From the NCBI GenBank assembly GCA_017303505.1, contig JAFLCP010000005.1, positions 1 to 64,000 on the forward strand: 64,000 nucleotides of DNA, read 5' to 3'. The position numbers and the translations under genes are program-made. A model generated the notes under the pieces. It searched no databases and had not been told where the DNA came from. It saw only the letters and a list, made by a program, of their open reading frames with translations. This document shows positions 2,770 through 34,317 of the stretch, piece after piece (position 1 is the first letter of the stretch; each line of letters opens with the position of its first letter). The DNA is from Planctomycetota bacterium. GTDB lineage: Bacteria; Planctomycetota; Planctomycetia; Pirellulales; Pirellulaceae.

Positions 2770-3198
2770 ATGCAAATCCCACAATCAATCACCTTGTCCA
2801 AGTCAGCCTATCGGCTCGACGGTGGTACGATGACTCTTCATGCCGTCACTGAAGTGGGGACCAAGTGTACTATCCAACTGAATCAACGCGTATTCGACAG
2901 TTACGCAGATCCGGGGCGTCTCTACTTCAACGAAGAGCCGGTAGAGATTCGCTCCGATGCTGAAACGCAAATAATCAACTTGCTCAGAACGGCTTCAATC
3001 GCGGCAATCAAACGTCAGGCCGGACCACCTGAAAACCGAATATCGAAGAACGCATTGATACTCGGCGACGATATCAAAGAGGTCATGGGCAACTCACCTG
3101 AAGATAATCTGCGCAAATTCCGCGATGACATTATTGCCTTCGTCGAGTCTGATGAATATGTCCAGATTGCCAAGCATGGAATCCCAAAACGTAAATGA
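2770..3198 (+). CDS. hypothetical protein, 142 aa
   Basis: ATG at 2770 is the first start outside attC 3. The N-terminal half is beta-rich (SKSAYRLDGGTMTLHAVTEV), the C-terminal half helical with a charged tail ending HGIPKRK. No signal peptide or membrane segment. No family recognised. Only gene in its cassette. Confidence 0.75.
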   Translation: MQIPQSITLSKSAYRLDGGTMTLHAVTEVGTKCTIQLNQRVFDSYADPGRLYFNEEPVEIRSDAETQIINLLRTASIAAIKRQAGPPENRISKNALILGDDIKEVMGNSPEDNLRKFRDDIIAFVESDEYVQIAKHGIPKRK

Positions 3199-3242
3199 AG
3201 TTCGCTCGTGATTTCTCAATAATTGAGTGCCAAACAAGGGCC

Positions 3243-3333
3243 TCATAACAAGGCGGTCAACCCGAGCGGCGGATCGGGCGTTTTCACAAATCAAAGGTTC
3301 TTGGCCGCCGCCGGGTTACCTTGGCCGTTACCT
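3243..3333 (+). other. attC 4
   Basis: R'' TCATAAC (one mismatch to the complement of GTTATGC at 2741), R' GTTACCT. Confidence 0.85.
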
Positions 3334-3357
3334 GTTCACTGCGGAATTCCCAGATCA

Positions 3358-3768
3358 ATGCCGACTGCAGCAGACGAGTTCGAACCACCGACTGAGCTGC
3401 TTGAATTGCTGCTTGCATCCGAAGTGCTGCCACGACTTGCATCATTCGAGAACGATGGGTGTCCCAAGTTACTTGCTCGAACTTACATCGCGGTGCGAGA
3501 ATCCAAGATGCTGATCGGAGTATTCGGTTCCTGTGGCAAGCTCGACCTGCCGTCCAACGGTGAACTTCGAATGCGAACGCGAAGGACTTTTGACGAGAAT
3601 CGGATTGTCTGGCGAATAGAGTCGCTCTTCCCAAACATAATGCCATCGACAGGCTTCGTAGGTTTCACTTCTCGTGGTGACGCAAAGAGGCACGACGGCC
3701 AATGGACTGTTCGCCACGACGGCTGGGTTGGAAAGTACAATGCCAACGCATGGTACGGTTGGACGTAG
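3358..3768 (+). CDS. hypothetical protein, 136 aa
   Basis: ATG 3358 (MPTAADEFEPPTELLELLLA) is chosen over upstream starts that lie in attC 4. The amphipathic helical N-terminus is followed by a Gly/Trp-rich region ending GWVGKYNANAWYGWT. The NANAWYG string recurs in the cassette at 6706 (EANAWYG), so the two may be distant relatives or share a structural turn. Function unknown. Confidence 0.75.
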   Translation: MPTAADEFEPPTELLELLLASEVLPRLASFENDGCPKLLARTYIAVRESKMLIGVFGSCGKLDLPSNGELRMRTRRTFDENRIVWRIESLFPNIMPSTGFVGFTSRGDAKRHDGQWTVRHDGWVGKYNANAWYGWT

Positions 3769-3774
3769 AACTGC

Positions 3775-3864
3775 AGGTAACAATCACGTGCACCGAAGTC
3801 GCGGACGGTGCTTTATCGCAATGGCACGTCAACCGCCGCGACTCGGTGACGTGTGCCGTTACCC
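3775..3864 (+). other. attC 5
   Basis: R'' AGGTAAC pairs exactly with GTTACCT at 3327; R' GTTACCC. GTGCACCGAAGTCGCGG type. Confidence 0.92.
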
Positions 3865-3887
3865 GACTTGAGCGATGAACCATATCC

Positions 3888-4154
3888 ATGGGAATCGAAA
3901 CAGTGACCTGTCCGGTCTGCTCTGGATTCTTTGGCGGAGCTGTTACACGCTTACTCGTCAAGATCGGAGACTGGATCAACGTTGGAACCGAGGTGATCGA
4001 AGTCGAAGATGAAATGGCTGTTATTCTGATCCCATCCAACAAGACCGGGAGGGTCGTGAGAATTCATTTGCAACCTAATGATCGTATTGATTGGAAATCA
4101 CCGATTCTCGATGTCGCAAATGATACAATAAATCCACCCTCTGCATCCAATTAA
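3888..4154 (+). CDS. lipoyl/biotinyl-like single-domain protein, 88 aa
   Basis: The fold pattern of a biotin/lipoyl attachment domain is readable: residues about 20-40 (LLVKIGDWINVGTEVIEVED), then a turn, then GRVVRIHLQPNDRIDWKSPILDV, giving the two quasi-symmetric hammerhead halves with paired G-D and V-G positions. The modified lysine expected in the hairpin (E-x-M-K-M in biotinyl domains) is replaced; the string here is EVEDEMAVILI. It therefore probably cannot be biotinylated or lipoylated. An N-terminal CPVC pair could bind metal. Single-gene cassette. Confidence 0.75.
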   Translation: MGIETVTCPVCSGFFGGAVTRLLVKIGDWINVGTEVIEVEDEMAVILIPSNKTGRVVRIHLQPNDRIDWKSPILDVANDTINPPSASN

Positions 4155-4212
4155 CGCTCTCTCGTTTTGCAATTACCGAGTGCAAGGTTCTAGCTTGCTT
4201 CTTTGAAACGGC

Positions 4213-4304
4213 GGGTAACAATGGGTTGCAGACGAAGCCCTCGATCAGCCGTTTTGACTTGCGTCAGGTCAACTGCTCGGGCTCGCTGAACCCTGCCGTT
4301 ACGC
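4213..4304 (+). other. attC 6
   Basis: R'' GGGTAAC pairs with GTTACCC at 3858; R' GTTACGC. AGCCCTCGATC...TTTTGACTTGCG type with an internal loop palindrome. Confidence 0.92.
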
Positions 4305-4325
4305 CTCCAAAACCGTATTCACGCG

Positions 4326-4937
4326 ATGCGATACACCTTTCCACATTTCACTCCCAAGCCGGAATACGTCCAACCCGATTACGAGAAATGGGCGGCGGTT
4401 CAAATTGGAATGTCGCGTGATGAGGTCGTTGCGCAACTTGGGCCACCACTCGACGATGAATATAGCGGTGGCAAATCACGCTCGACCGATCCATACTACA
4501 CTTACGGTTACCTACAAATGCCAATGCTTCCGCATCCACGAACCTACGACTTTTTGATCGGCTTCGACGATGACGGAAAAGTGTTCGCAAAGATCGATCC
4601 ATTCAACGGCCGGTTTTCAACTGACGGTTCACCGACGTCGCCTGAGATAATCACCCCTGCGGATTGCGCGGTCTTCTCACACTATCCTCGTATCCTCGAT
4701 TGCCGTTGGTTTCCGAGTTCTGGGCTCTACCCGATGACGTACATCTTTGAGCTTGGTGCGGGACAGCCGTTTGGCCCGGAAAAATTCTACGACGAAGAGA
4801 TCGACTCCGATTTGCAAATTCCATTTTTCATGACTACGTTCGGTGGGGCTCAACCCGGCCGGTTCCGGGTCAAAGCTAAGAACAAGCTCGGCGAAAGCGA
4901 ATGGTCCCACTATCGATACTTCAGCTTCAACGTATAG
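4326..4937 (+). CDS. BamE/SmpA-like plus FnIII-like protein, 203 aa
   Basis: N-terminal part (residues about 20-40) carries the motif QIGMSRDEVVAQLGPPLDD, typical of the SmpA/OmlA (BamE-like) fold, in which a helix is followed by LG-P. The C-terminal 80 residues (DCRWFPSSGLYPMTYIFELG ... RFRVKAKNKLGESEW) read like a fibronectin type III module with its closing KAKN-LG-SEWS strand. No signal peptide is seen, so it is probably cytosolic. Single-gene cassette; function unknown. Confidence 0.78.
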   Translation: MRYTFPHFTPKPEYVQPDYEKWAAVQIGMSRDEVVAQLGPPLDDEYSGGKSRSTDPYYTYGYLQMPMLPHPRTYDFLIGFDDDGKVFAKIDPFNGRFSTDGSPTSPEIITPADCAVFSHYPRILDCRWFPSSGLYPMTYIFELGAGQPFGPEKFYDEEIDSDLQIPFFMTTFGGAQPGRFRVKAKNKLGESEWSHYRYFSFNV

Positions 4938-9793: not shown

Positions 9794-9877
9794 GGGTAAC
9801 CAAGCGTTGAACGCGAGCGGGCGATTACGCCGGTCCTGAAACCATAGTCCAACGCGCCCGCCGCGTTAACGCAGTCG
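9794..9877 (+). other. attC 14, interrupted at its crossover point by the IS element
   Basis: R'' GGGTAAC (9794-9800); arms AGCGTTGAACGC and CGTTAAC intact. The site runs to the G of R' at 9877 and resumes with TTCTCT at 12045 beyond the IS. Confidence 0.85.
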
Positions 9878-9883
9878 ACTATG

Positions 9884-9893
9884 AAGTCCTGGG
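9884..9893. repeat. left subterminal inverted repeat of the IS
   Basis: AAGTCCTGGG; exact complement of CCCAGGACTT at 12024-12033. Confidence 0.85.
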
Positions 9894-10563
9894 ATGTGTA
9901 AGTGGCAGTCACCACTGTTTTTGTTTTTCTTGTGTTTACATCGTTTGATTCACCGTGAGGTGCCTGTAGCTGTAAGCATCGAGTAGGTAAATGGGTTTTC
10001 TGTTACTTCGAGTTGTGGCAAGGATGTTTGATTAGACGACTATTCGAGGTATGAACGCATTTCACTCTAATTGAACCTGTTCTTATCAGGCTACGTTCCC
10101 TCAGTTATCCATGCACGGTTCAAAGCATCTTGGTTCGCACTTGGCTTCCTCGATGATTTTCCGTGTTGGCTCTAGTTCGCTTTAGGCTTCAGTGAGCAGC
10201 GAACTAGTTTCCGAGCGGCTGGCACATTCTTTAGGGCGACGTGTCGAACACTGCAGCGATTCTTGTGCTAATCGGTCCATAAAGTGTTCGTGTCATGGGT
10301 TGTCGGTGCGCAGGTCCGTTGGGTAGTTCTCGTCCTTGTCATTCTTCGTTGTATAAGTTAGTCCAGTCCTTCTGCTTGCTTAATGGTTAGGGATCTTCTC
10401 AAAACGCTTTAGGTAATTCAGTTCGTAAGGGTGCTATTTGTAAAAGGTGTTGAGGTCCGATTCGTTCTTCGATGTTGGTGCATCGGCTAGGCATACTGGT
10501 TGTCCTCTTCACCCAAGTTTAGGCACGGCGAGCAAGTCCGATTCGTTCGTCGATGTCCTAGCA
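9894..10563 (-). ncRNA. candidate bridge-RNA region, IS non-coding end
   Basis: About 670 bp downstream of the transposase stop without a convincing ORF. It contains a 20-bp near-direct repeat, GTCCGATTCGTTC-TCGATG, at about 10455 and 10536, and a perfect 13-bp inverted repeat, CACGGCGAGCAAG (10524-10536) with its complement at 10586-10598, which spans the transposase stop. In the IS1111 group the guide (bridge) RNA is encoded in the non-coding end downstream of the transposase, so this is the expected place. Exact RNA ends cannot be set by eye. Confidence 0.4.
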
Positions 10564-11910
10564 TCAGACAGCCGCTGCTGGCTCTCTTGCTCGCCGTGGT
10601 TTTCGGGGGGTTACGGACTTGTTCCGCATCGAATCTTTCGATTCAAGATGATTCTCGATTTGGGGCTTGTCAGGTCTTTCCTTTGAAGTGCTCTTTTTAG
10701 TTACTTTTTTGGCTACGGCAGTGGCCTTGCTCGACTCTGTGGAAGGATGAGCTTGTTTAGCTTCCCTTGCTTCCTTACGCAGTCTTTTTTTGCGTTGATC
10801 ACTGTTCTCCTTAGGCTTCATCGCATCCAAGACGTCTTGGATCGAGTTTGTTGTTTTGCTGAACGATTTTGTCACCTTGAGCATGTGTGATGGTTTCCAA
10901 TCAGTTTGATCCCGCAGCATGGCCCAAGCTAGAACGGCGAGTTTACGCGCTAAGGCGATAGCGGCTTTCTTCTTACGTGTTTTTTGTTTGCCACAGATAC
11001 GTTCATAAACAGCTTTGGCCCAAGGGTTGTAACGTAAAGACGCCCAAGCACACTCGACGAGGATCGTACGGGCCAATGGGTTGCCACGTTTGGTAATACG
11101 TCCATTGCGATCGGTTTCGCCTGATTGGAATTGACGGGGAACAAGACCGAAATAAGCGGAGACTTGTCTTCCATTTTTGAATCGATGTGGATCATCCAGG
11201 CAGGCGACGAGGATTTCAGCGGTTCGAGGTCCAACACCCGGAATCGTCTGAATCCGTTGGATACGTGAATCCTGTTTACCGGTGGCTTCGAGTTTTTTGA
11301 CAACCAAGTTAAGTTGTTCGCTTAAAGCATCGAGCTGTGTCAATTCGAGATCGAGTTCCCCTTTCCAAAGTTCGTGCGGCTCGCAATCGGCCAGAGATTT
11401 GCGGAAGGAGTTGATGCGTGCTCTTCCTGTGCACCAGGCTTTTTCTCCGGTGTCGATAGCAATTCCATGATTGACGAACCAAGCGCGAATGGTGCATTTC
11501 ATTTTATTGATGCGTTGATCGAGCGTCTTGCGATACTTGACAAGCGATCGAAACTCGCGGTGGGATTCGGAGGGCATGTGCACCGGTTTGAGTTCATCCA
11601 TTGAAGCCATACGAGCCAGCTTAAGCGCGTCGTCTTTGTCGGTTTTTCGTTTCACGTTGGACCATTTCCAGGCATCTTCATTGGTGGAACAAACGATCGT
11701 TTTATGCCCAGCGTTTTGAGCGAGATCGCAGATCCAGCCCGACGGTCCACAAGCTTCCATGACGACGAGATCAATTTTGTGTTTTTTGAAGAGGGTAGCG
11801 AGGAATTGTCGATCGGTGGCGGCGTTAAGGAAGGAGTGCTTTCGGGTTTTGGAGTCAAAGAAGCAGCACATGGTATTGAATTTTCCGAGATCGAGAGCGA
11901 GAATTTTCAT
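10564..11910 (-). CDS. IS110-family transposase (DEDD RuvC-like), 448 aa
   Basis: Start at 11910 (MKILALDLGKF). The longer frame to 12264 would cross the IS end and the next cassette gene. An N-terminal RuvC-like DEDD domain shows D7 (LALDLG), E52 (VVMEACGPSG) and D91/D94 (KTDKDDA). A C-terminal Transposase_20 domain carries the helix-hairpin-helix IPGVGPRTAE and the PRQFQSG serine expected for the Tnp-domain nucleophile. The last 100 residues are an unusual Lys/Arg-rich tail; typical IS110 enzymes are about 330-400 aa. The gene appears intact. Bridge RNA would guide target choice. Confidence 0.93.
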   Translation of the reverse strand: MKILALDLGKFNTMCCFFDSKTRKHSFLNAATDRQFLATLFKKHKIDLVVMEACGPSGWICDLAQNAGHKTIVCSTNEDAWKWSNVKRKTDKDDALKLARMASMDELKPVHMPSESHREFRSLVKYRKTLDQRINKMKCTIRAWFVNHGIAIDTGEKAWCTGRARINSFRKSLADCEPHELWKGELDLELTQLDALSEQLNLVVKKLEATGKQDSRIQRIQTIPGVGPRTAEILVACLDDPHRFKNGRQVSAYFGLVPRQFQSGETDRNGRITKRGNPLARTILVECAWASLRYNPWAKAVYERICGKQKTRKKKAAIALARKLAVLAWAMLRDQTDWKPSHMLKVTKSFSKTTNSIQDVLDAMKPKENSDQRKKRLRKEAREAKQAHPSTESSKATAVAKKVTKKSTSKERPDKPQIENHLESKDSMRNKSVTPRKPRRAREPAAAV

Positions 11911-12023
11911 AGACGTTGTTCCTTGGGTTTGGGGTTGGAATTTGTGACGCGTTGTGTTCCAAGCACAACGCACGATCACGGGTTCGAGTCGCCAGATTTT
12001 ATTCGAAAGACTCCCACCCCAAA

Positions 12024-12033
12024 CCCAGGACTT
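12024..12033. repeat. right subterminal inverted repeat of the IS
   Basis: CCCAGGACTT, complement of 9884-9893; 11 bp from the right boundary. Confidence 0.85.
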
Positions 12034-12095
12034 ACATGGATTCTTTCTCTGGTCCCGTATGTTCATAGCGTTCCGGGAGTTTAAATACACTCGCC

Positions 12096-12655: not shown

Positions 12656-13150
12656 ATGCCAATTGGCTACGACTACCGATGTCCAAAATGTAACCATCAA
12701 TGGATTTTGTTCTCCAAACGATTCGCTATTGGTCCCAGTCAATGGGGCGAAACCAAATACACATGCTTTTCGTGCCAGACGTTTCTGTCCGTGGCCACGT
12801 CGTTGGACTCGAACTCTTGGGCAATGTGGTACCGTAACCACTACGATGATATGCACCAAAACTCAGTAACGGCTCAACTCGCGGGTACGATAAACGATAT
12901 CTTTTCAAAACAACGTGGGTTGACACCGATCACCTTGAATTTCTCTATGATTGGATGCCCAACATGTGGCGATTCGATGTCGACCGTCCCATTTGGGCAA
13001 CACTTGATGAAATGCCCGGAATGCAAACAATACACTGGGGAATTTGACGACGGCGACGGCATCAGCATCTACGCTTTTCCCGACGCCGAACACGGCACAG
13101 AACCAAGCGATGCCCCCAAGTCGCCGATCGGCCGCGAATTCGAATCATAG
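12656..13150 (+). CDS. zinc-ribbon protein with attC-encoded C-terminus, 164 aa
   Basis: An N-terminal zinc ribbon (YRCPKCNHQW ... YTCFSCQTF) and a second one near residue 105 (MIGCPTCGDSM ... LMKCPECKQY) make two C-x2-C pairs each. There is no stop before R'' (13097), so the last 18 residues (GTEPSDAPKSPIGREFES) are encoded by attC 16. The same tail type ends the proteins at 31640 and 43776. Function unknown. Confidence 0.8.
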   Translation: MPIGYDYRCPKCNHQWILFSKRFAIGPSQWGETKYTCFSCQTFLSVATSLDSNSWAMWYRNHYDDMHQNSVTAQLAGTINDIFSKQRGLTPITLNFSMIGCPTCGDSMSTVPFGQHLMKCPECKQYTGEFDDGDGISIYAFPDAEHGTEPSDAPKSPIGREFES

Positions 13151-13454: not shown

Positions 13455-13539
13455 CAATGCGATGAATGCCAAGCCCTCGATGGAGCGTTTGAGCAATGGT
13501 TGCTCAACCACTCGGGCTGGGTTATCGCAACCGTTATGC
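13449..13539 (+). other. attC 17
   Basis: R'' ACATAAC (one mismatch to its cassette start GTTCTGT), R' GTTATGC. AGCCCTCGATGGAGCG type. Confidence 0.9.
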
Positions 13540-13555
13540 AGGAAGGCGACGCACT

Positions 13556-14044
13556 GTGAGATTCAACGAGATCTACAACGTTCACTGCGAGCTCATACTC
13601 GACCATGGACGCGTAATCTCACTGAGCACGTTACAGCAAAGTCGCACGTACGCGGGCTTGCAAGTTGGCGCACCGAATAAAGACTCAAACAATCACGCGA
13701 TTCAATGGCATCTCGAAGAAGCTCGGAAGTTACTAGGTTCAGTCGGCGAACCTTTCGTGATTCAGCCGGAACGACGTGAATACCACATCAAGCCAGGCGA
13801 CATGCAGGGCGTGCTGGATCGACAGAATGATCGTCCGCCTGAGATGCTGCATATTCCAGAATGGATCCCGGATATCTATTCAATCGGTGTGTTTCAATCT
13901 CTCTGCCCTGCCCGCGACAAAACGAAAGACTTCTCAATGCTTACAATTCTCTGGTATCAACCCGACTTTGGGCTGGACGCGAATGCCGCGAAGGCAATCT
14001 GTCTTGTAGACTGGGACTCGTTTGCAACGGATTTGGAGTGGTAG
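13556..14044 (+). CDS. duplicated-cassette protein, copy A, 162 aa
   Basis: GTG start at 13556 aligns with the ATG of copy B (33829). The proteins differ at only about 13 of 162 positions. Pattern: YNVHCELILDHGRVISL, then TYAGLQVGAPNK, PERREYHIKPGDMQ, IPEWIPDIYSIGVFQS and LTILWYQPDFG. Soluble; no family recognised. Near-identity of coding and flanking cassette DNA shows copying of a whole cassette within the array. Confidence 0.85.
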   Translation: MRFNEIYNVHCELILDHGRVISLSTLQQSRTYAGLQVGAPNKDSNNHAIQWHLEEARKLLGSVGEPFVIQPERREYHIKPGDMQGVLDRQNDRPPEMLHIPEWIPDIYSIGVFQSLCPARDKTKDFSMLTILWYQPDFGLDANAAKAICLVDWDSFATDLEW

Positions 14045-33227: not shown

Positions 33228-33713
33228 ATGGCCTCACGCGATTCGATAGCAAAACTTGTGAATGACTCACTTGTATTGACCGGTCAACCTGATCGGACAA
33301 CTGATCGCACACGCAAATCACTCGAACTGGCAGTATTAGCTGCGTGTGAATTTGCGTCGCCGGTGGTAGATTCGACTCACTTGCTTTGTGGATTGATTCG
33401 CGAAGGAAATGGGTTAGCTTTCCACATCTTGAATCAATTGGGTTTGACGCGAGAACGACTTGAACAAACGACGGCGCGTGGGCACAAGGCTGGAGAATCC
33501 TCTTCGCTTCGGCTTGACGACGACCTGACGGCAGCACTGAATGAATGCTGGACCTTGGCCACTTCTCTCAACCACAACTTCATCGGCACCGAACACTTGC
33601 TACTCGGAATCGTTGGCGCTCGGACCAGAGCACTCGAACTCCTGCAGCAACTTGGCGTCGACCGCTCCGCAGTGAACATTGAGATCCGAAAACTGATAGG
33701 TGCGCCCACTTAA
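33228..33713 (+). CDS. Clp N-terminal-domain protein without ATPase, 161 aa
   Basis: Two Clp_N repeats: residues about 35-70 (CEFASPVVDSTHLLCGLIRE, then GNGLAFHILNQLGL) and 110-145 (ATSLNHNFIGTEHLLLGIVG, ALELLQQLGVD). This is the substrate/adaptor-binding N-domain of ClpA/ClpC with no AAA+ module. Stand-alone N-domains can compete for or modulate Clp adaptors; here that is inference. ATG 33228 preferred. Confidence 0.9.
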   Translation: MASRDSIAKLVNDSLVLTGQPDRTTDRTRKSLELAVLAACEFASPVVDSTHLLCGLIREGNGLAFHILNQLGLTRERLEQTTARGHKAGESSSLRLDDDLTAALNECWTLATSLNHNFIGTEHLLLGIVGARTRALELLQQLGVDRSAVNIEIRKLIGAPT

Positions 33714-33722
33714 ACTGCAAGA

Positions 33723-33812
33723 GACGAACCAAGAAACGCACGCAAGTCGCCGAAGGCGTGTTGTGGCAATGGAGAATTACGCGCGGCGGCTGCGTGATTT
33801 CAGTCGTTATGA
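33723..33812 (+). other. attC 52
   Basis: R'' GACGAAC pairs with (A)TTCGTC at 33196; R' GTTATGA. GCACGCAAGTCGCCGAAGGCG type. Confidence 0.9.
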
Positions 33813-33828
33813 AGGAAGACGACGCAGC

Positions 33829-34317
33829 ATGAAATTCAATGAGATCTACAACGTCCACTGCGAGCTCATACTCGACAATGGACGCGCAATCACACTGAAC
33901 ACGTTACAGCAAGGTCGCACGTACGCGGGCTTGCAAGTTGGCGCACCGAATAAAGACTCAAACGATCACGCGATTCAATGGCATCTCGAAGAAGCTCGGA
34001 AGTTACTAGGTTCAGTCGGCGAACCTTTCGTGATTGAGCCGGAACGACGTGAATACCACATCAAGCCAGGCGACATGCAGGGCGTGCTGGATCGACAGAA
34101 TGATCGTCCGCCTGAGATGCAGCATATTCCAGAATGGGTCCCGGATATCTATTCGATCGGTGTGTTTCAATCTCTCTGCCCCGCCCGCGACAAAACGAAA
34201 GACTTTTCAATGCTTACAATTCTCTGGTATCAGCCCGACTTTGGGCTGGACGCGAATGCCACGAAGGCAATCTGTCATGTAGACTGGGATTCGTTTGCAA
34301 CGGATTTAGAGTGGTAG
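33829..34317 (+). CDS. duplicated-cassette protein, copy B, 162 aa
   Basis: ATG 33829 (MKFNEIYNVHCELILDNGRA). Differs from copy A (13556) by a few conservative changes such as VIS-to-AIT, IQPER-to-IEPER and IPEWIP-to-IPEWVP, with all other segments identical. Retention of the frame in both copies suggests selection or recent duplication. The attC of this copy has decayed. Confidence 0.87.
   Translation: MKFNEIYNVHCELILDNGRAITLNTLQQGRTYAGLQVGAPNKDSNDHAIQWHLEEARKLLGSVGEPFVIEPERREYHIKPGDMQGVLDRQNDRPPEMQHIPEWVPDIYSIGVFQSLCPARDKTKDFSMLTILWYQPDFGLDANATKAICHVDWDSFATDLEW

Follow-up and report, generated by a model that had tools for sequence, protein, structure and literature searches.

An IS1111-type insertion sequence in a planctomycete integron array with a putative attC-guiding RNA and apparently duplicated target-binding loops

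The stretch analysed here, referred to as the window, comprises the first 64,000 nucleotides of contig JAFLCP010000005.1 from a Planctomycetota bacterium (assembly GCA_017303505.1), and one of its attC sites is interrupted by an insertion sequence (IS) carrying a transposase gene (tnp). We regard the window as an integron cassette array because a covariance model of attC, R1, built from 14 attC sites of the window, has 87 plus-strand matches in it at E ≤ 1 (tallied by hand from the result table), 84 of them below 0.01. The assembly (G000, 7.76 Mb) holds one copy only of the IS and thus no paralogues for comparison. In a protein search, the relatives of the transposase come mostly from metagenome-assembled genomes named Pirellula, Planctomycetaceae or Planctomycetales, plus Phormidium tenue, so that the host probably belongs to the Pirellulaceae; related elements are given L numbers and genomes G numbers. 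Integron integrases above the family cut-off are present in six of the nine genomes searched; the G000 assembly, which holds this large array, gave none.

The features of the element are collected in Table 1. Its end points rest on identical copies at differing sites within single genomes (G006, G081, G206, G147), which diverge at the same positions. Read in the tnp orientation, the sequence runs AGAATCC-ATG(T)AAGTCC...GGACTTCAT-AGT, and the window element and its relatives have 7-bp and 3-bp extensions outside the subterminal inverted repeats. The window repeat, ATG(T)AAGTCCTGGG, pairs over 10 contiguous bp after a 1-bp offset, and that of L112 is perfect over 17 bp. The transposase matches PF01548 (52 bits) and PF02371 (100.9 bits) of Pfam, a DEDD (RuvC-like) N-terminal domain and a Transposase_20 C-terminal domain, and scores 254.5 bits with NCBIfam NF033542 (IS110 RNA-guided transposase) against a cut-off of 140. 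A GLVPRQFQSG motif at residue 255 corresponds to the GL-P----S(T)G motif in the C-terminal domain of IS1111 transposases, and the tail after about residue 372 is poorly conserved. The protein lies outside the 330–350 aa that are typical (not defining) of IS1111, and its intact window-type relatives measure 440–463 aa. From the stop codon to the right end, 686 nt are non-coding. By its ends, its motif, the downstream RNA and the order of the guide segments T and B described below, the element is of the IS1111 type, as far as sequence comparison tells.

Table 1. Features of the IS and of the interrupted attC site (window coordinates).
Feature	Position	Strand	Basis
Complete IS1111-type (IS110 superfamily) insertion sequence, 2,167 bp	9878..12044	-	identity lost at these ends among identical copies in relatives; flanks
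Right end: 3-bp extension AGT (9878-9880) and subterminal inverted repeat	9878..9893	-	flank and end comparison
Left end: 7-bp extension AGAATCC (12038-12044) and subterminal inverted repeat	12024..12044	-	flank and end comparison
Transposase gene (tnp), 448 aa, DEDD/IS110 family	10564..11910	-	Pfam, NCBIfam, sequence match to IS621 and ISCro4 transposase chains
attC site cut by the IS at CG|TT; missing right terminus on the far side, from 12045	9794..9877	+	covariance model R1
Putative target-binding loop 1 (TBL1): guides T1 10567-10577, B1 10544-10552; overlaps tnp stop codon	10527..10595	-	alignment A5, 15 elements
Putative target-binding loop 2 (TBL2): same architecture, guides T2 10486-10496, B2 10463-10471	10444..10517	-	alignment A6, 14 elements
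Almost invariant loop GTCGCCCTAAAGAATGTG; possibly a third, altered B-guide copy	10223..10240	-	alignment A3, 20 sequences
Conserved hairpin between invariant loop and donor domain	10172..10207	-	A3 fold: both-side changes in 9/19 pairs
Proposed donor-binding domain: internal loop with CATGGATAACT (10103-10113) and GAATAGTCG (10037-10045)	10016..10133	-	alignment A2, 19 sequences; covariance search

In the window, the IS-bearing attC matches R1 over 9794-9883 with 62.8 bits. Among the 29 copies with a usable right flank, attC adjoins the right end in 26, always on the strand opposite tnp. Not counted are L004, L088, L105 and L118, in which the right flank is missing or measures 2 nt; L099 and L104, in which the matches are partial and the attC is broken by further sequence, are counted as attC. 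The left flank ends in AA and the right flank begins with CG, giving AA|CG in the tnp orientation and CG|TT on the top strand (the bar marks the insertion point). CGTT is invariant in 14 aligned intact attC sites, and GTT occurs in 62 of the 62 window attC sites read by pattern, which are the readable ones among the 79 strongest window matches with the IS-bearing site set aside. We take CG|TT to be the G^TT crossover of integrons. In these 26 copies, the insertion lies at one fixed point and in one orientation within attC, at that crossover. Group II intron domains (RF02001, RF01998, RF00029) lie beside L009, L091, L099 and L104, apparently in the same right-end attC sites.

A re-targeted sister subgroup in genomes G105 and G106 is inserted at CTGC|CGCTCGCC. 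Intact empty sites of this kind number 13 in G105 and 0 in G106, and a reversed-pattern control gives 0. Because the 13 sites of G105 equal the left flank plus the right flank, they confirm the end model and the absence of target duplication. For the attC copies, the uninterrupted attC sites likewise suggest that no target bases are duplicated. Alternative ends, TCCATGT/CAT, were rejected; they would put conserved bases in every target and rebuild neither attC nor the G105 empty sites. In L195–L207 (G105), we notice that the target TCTGCCGCTCGCCTWA forms the end of a dispersed repeat whose upstream sequence varies.

The conserved RNA lies on the minus strand, which is that of tnp, and no Rfam family was matched in the window. 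An earlier reading of the DNA alone, the original prediction, had proposed at 9894-10598 a non-coding region downstream of tnp with a direct repeat at about 10455 and 10536 and a 13-bp inverted repeat across the stop codon. Both repeats are real. The direct repeat (10455-10484 and 10536-10565) is 83% identical over 30 nt at a spacing of 81, and the inverted repeat (10524-10536 and 10586-10598) is perfect over its 13 bp and spans the stop codon at 10564-10566. The region is mostly non-coding as proposed, except that it includes the last ~35 nt of tnp and that the first hairpin overlaps the gene. Minus-strand folding, which had been suggested as a check, places 10455-10598 ahead of 198 of 200 shuffles (z -2.46). 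The alignment of the 3' region covered 25 distinct elements. In 14–15 related elements, both copies of the direct repeat lie inside hairpins whose stems co-change, so neither the direct nor the inverted repeat is due to chance. The prediction of an attC-directed IS1111-type element with a structured downstream RNA and target-matching loop bases thus agrees with the flanks of the copies and with these compensatory changes; of the two contrary outcomes that it named, a lack of conserved structure in homologues and loops unrelated to attC, neither was found.

The two hairpins, TBL1 and TBL2, share one architecture, consisting of a closing stem, an internal loop and an apical stem GATG/CATC. In each of them, the apical stem and the 3' strand, ..AACGAATCGG, fall within the direct repeat. 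In TBL1, 98.5% of cells are paired vs 95.3 when shuffled, with changes on both sides in 5 pairs. In TBL2, 96.4% of cells are paired vs 80.3 when shuffled, and both-side changes occur in 10 of 16 pairs (39 such cells vs 9.9 shuffled). Thirteen of the 15 elements of A5 are also in A6, that is, they have two tandem loops. The original prediction did not foresee tandem target-reading loops in the direct repeat. One hairpin only may work as the target loop, the other being a decaying duplicate, and we hold this to be a serious contender, somewhat short of even. L086 and L004 keep loop 1 next to a degenerate second copy, and the L112-type and class-level relatives have one such loop only; against this, the compensatory changes are stronger in loop 2, and the 13 elements with both loops have their guides intact. 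It is reasonable to suppose that both loops may be in use.

The internal loop of each hairpin carries two candidate guides, with the T segment lying 5' of the B segment. In the window-type loops, T is similar to the attC right half (consensus ATCGCTGTC, drawn from the 62 window sites), and B, '..AACG', matches AA|CG. The correspondence of guide and target is clearest in class-level relatives with shorter RNAs and other targets, which were found in 18 of 397 genomes. In these RNAs, the bases on the 5' side of the apical hairpin complement the right target, and those on its 3' side equal the left target plus two bases, as read by eye. In a permutation test of 17 elements, the T guides score a mean of 6.71 with their own target vs 5.56 with permuted ones (0/20,000), and the B guides 6.47 vs 5.18 (1/20,000). 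This set was drawn up by dropping L230 (a near-copy of L220) and L189 (left flank cut), with the lengths of the 3' region set by hand. Minus five attC-type elements (n=12), the values are 2/20,000 for T, 63/20,000 for B and 0/20,000 for both jointly. Single cases reach T 11 and B 7 nt in L179, B 11 in L220, T 9 and B 8 in L223, and T 7 and B 7 in L222. In L222, the target core is AG (elsewhere CG) and the RNA likewise has AG, and the right end CATAGG is accompanied by GAATAGG. The guides of L177 (G120), an attC-located copy, match their own site over 10 (B) and 9 (T) nt, far more specifically than those of the window type.

The window-type T guides were scored against the attC consensus. The mean of 31 guides is 2.94 vs -4.89 permuted (0/5,000, and again 0/5,000 with the last base fixed), a figure that keeps two mis-parsed guides, the second copies of L087 and L101. 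In 22 insertions, the best T guide per element agrees with the right flank at 4.69 of 9 positions vs 3.39 shuffled (0/300). The guide and target bases at -3 agree as well (12:1 vs 4:9, Fisher p 0.0036), in counts that leave out L094, L095 and L103 (without the motif) and two copies with base A at -3. The predicted loop complementary to GCAGTCG has a loose counterpart in T1, GCGGCTGTC (10567-10575), which agrees with the attC strand ..GCAGTC at five of the six junction-nearest positions; the clear evidence is group-wide. The two guides of the window are unlike each other, T2 being ATGCCTAGC.

Several results weigh against a guiding role of these loops. Over the 22 window-type insertions, the advantage of own over permuted flanks is modest for T (5.18 vs 4.69, 131/20,000) and not significant for B (2,693/20,000). 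The window element fits its own site no better than others (B 6, T 5); its guides suit attC sites at large and not this one in particular. A position-weight scan confined to the 3' region, with the end of the gene left out, found no T guide. L085, L087 and L101, plus L172 of a later set, stand at AA|CG sites without a scored attC. Moreover, the guides were picked out by eye from the structure, and the consensus test of the 31 guides was post hoc, on guides that share ancestry. Since the guides have a common descent and the pattern had been noticed ahead of the test, we regard the window-type statistics as supportive, not decisive.

These results bear on the possibility that the transposase recognises folded (or IntI-bound) attC and that the RNA adds little target information. 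attC sites form hairpins, which fits such recognition, and the window-type copies enter very diverse attC sites with only AA|CG in common and a weak copy-specific guide match. We consider this account unlikely, since the guides match the right halves of attC clearly better than they match shuffled targets, the guides are rewritten in relatives whose targets are not attC, and the off-target copies still stand at AA|CG. It is very improbable that the conserved hairpins serve tnp as control signals of transcription or translation (terminator, attenuator): loop 1 straddles the stop codon with a 13-bp perfect stem, but the loops, not the stems alone, are conserved and change with the target, and the position downstream of tnp is that of published guide RNAs (PMC11187229).

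Further towards the right end lies a domain (10016-10133) that looks like a donor-reading loop. In A2, 96.8% of its cells are paired vs 87.5 when shuffled and 30–42% when slid, with changes on both sides in 9 of 18 pairs. The left-end bases ATCCATG are complementary to the start of the segment CATGGATAACT, and the right-end bases ATAGT occur within GAATAGTCG. The agreement of loop and right end is kept with the changed right ends of L222 and L018. It fails in L110, L182, L214 and L227, and the single-sequence fold of the domain is ordinary (z -0.87); both points speak against the donor assignment. Single-sequence folding, which gives z -1.00 for 10016-10267, was set aside as evidence. The covariance model of the domain matches 33 of 241 genomes of the family and 20 of 396 sampled in the order, all of the latter in the same family. 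A broader, later-built model matches 36 of the 241 family genomes, the Phormidium element, and L216, L212 and L229 from other families of the class.

Two other loops were considered as target guides and rejected. The 3' loop AGTCGTTTAATC varies (TT, CC, TC, CG) without a change of target. The TACCG that the G105 subgroup carries in the loop GTCGCCCTAAAGAATGTG made it the early favourite for the main target loop, until the homologous T/B architecture proved to be that of the direct repeat. The latter loop is near-invariant in window-type elements and resembles a B segment with AG replacing CG.

Taken together, we consider it highly probable from the comparisons that this is an IS1111-type element whose downstream RNA guides the DEDD transposase to attC sites. 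Comparison gives good support to the element, to its target and to the conserved RNA, and guidance of insertion by the RNA is very likely, given the homology and the guide-target agreement in relatives. In the proposed mechanism, transcription would proceed from tnp into the 3' region, and the transposase would bind the downstream RNA. Either tandem loop could then pair with attC: the T segment on the 5' side with the right half, from +2 outwards, and the B segment ('..AACG') on the 3' side with the core and the left half. The 3' domain would pair with the two IS ends where they are joined in the circle, and strand exchange without duplicated bases would follow, in the way published for IS1111/IS110 elements. 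The range of attC sequences accepted may be wider with two loops that carry different guides. We give about even chances to a multiplexed guide RNA, in which two independently readable tandem loops would direct one transposase to a divergent attC family, recognised as a class and entered exactly at the crossover base.

Among published elements, the IS1111 members ISEc11, ISKpn4, ISPst6 and ISPa11 have a seekRNA, and ISKpn4 and ISPst6 are attC-directed (PMC11187229). IS1111 elements are described with subterminal inverted repeats of usually 11–13 bp, 7-bp and 3-bp extensions and transposases of 330–350 aa (PMC11187229). The window element resembles them in the downstream non-coding region, the extensions, the GL-P----SG motif, T lying 5' of B, the single orientation and the absence of duplicated target bases, and it differs in the 448 aa transposase, a 3' region of about 680 bp, the two tandem target loops with the first over the tnp stop, and the host phylum (PMC11187229). 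With the IS110/IS621 bridge RNA it shares putative target-binding and donor-binding internal loops with guides for both strands, whereas its RNA lies downstream of the gene, T precedes B, and there are two target loops and long subterminal repeats (PMC11208160). In the descriptions consulted, each IS110/IS1111 guide RNA has one target-binding loop, with no stated requirement for a single one (PMC11187229, PMC11208160). In the present element, loops of the bridge RNA type with guides to both strands appear at the target side, and the donor loop is consistent with this in most elements, with exceptions.

Titles and abstract starts among the matches listed from the bridge RNA, seekRNA, IS1111 and integron literature contain no tandem target loop and no planctomycete attC element, which does not prove absence. 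The IS1111-attC group, as reportedly found by Tetu & Holmes in 2008 and Post & Hall in 2009, targets integron attC in one orientation and is said to have been described from proteobacterial integrons. The present element is like this group, by description only, in attC targeting and orientation, and unlike it in coming from a planctomycete clade. Group IIC-attC introns also lie in attC sites, with an RNA and a mechanism unrelated to IS1111; the likeness is one of location. attC-directed elements with a bridge RNA or seekRNA are known, and the apparently duplicated target-binding loops would be the new feature.

We also notice several features outside these subjects. Inside the left end, upstream of tnp, a 16-nt inverted repeat (11924-11939 and 12012-12027, 94% complementary) may form a regulatory hairpin. 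The right end of L093 with CGCCTGC is present in two tandem copies spaced 26 bp apart, as would result from a small duplication or from a second event at this site. The cyanobacterial relative L012 (Phormidium tenue, 2930-4363) shares the RNA 3' domain, and its left end, which follows ..GCATAA, is near-identical; its right end was not found, and other sequence follows. Meanwhile, two cassettes of the window about 20 kb apart (13496-14044 and 33700-34317) encode near-identical proteins, and the frames ending at 13150, 32215 and 44255 give otherwise unlike cassette proteins a common tail KSP....FES, apparently because cassette frames read into the attC site.

The relatives in which both targets and guides have changed amount to a natural experiment on what each guide position reads. 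A natural two-loop RNA, if true, would be a ready-made model for multi-target programmable insertion. Landing exactly at the integron recombination base would tie RNA-guided transposition to the cassette traffic in large planctomycete arrays.
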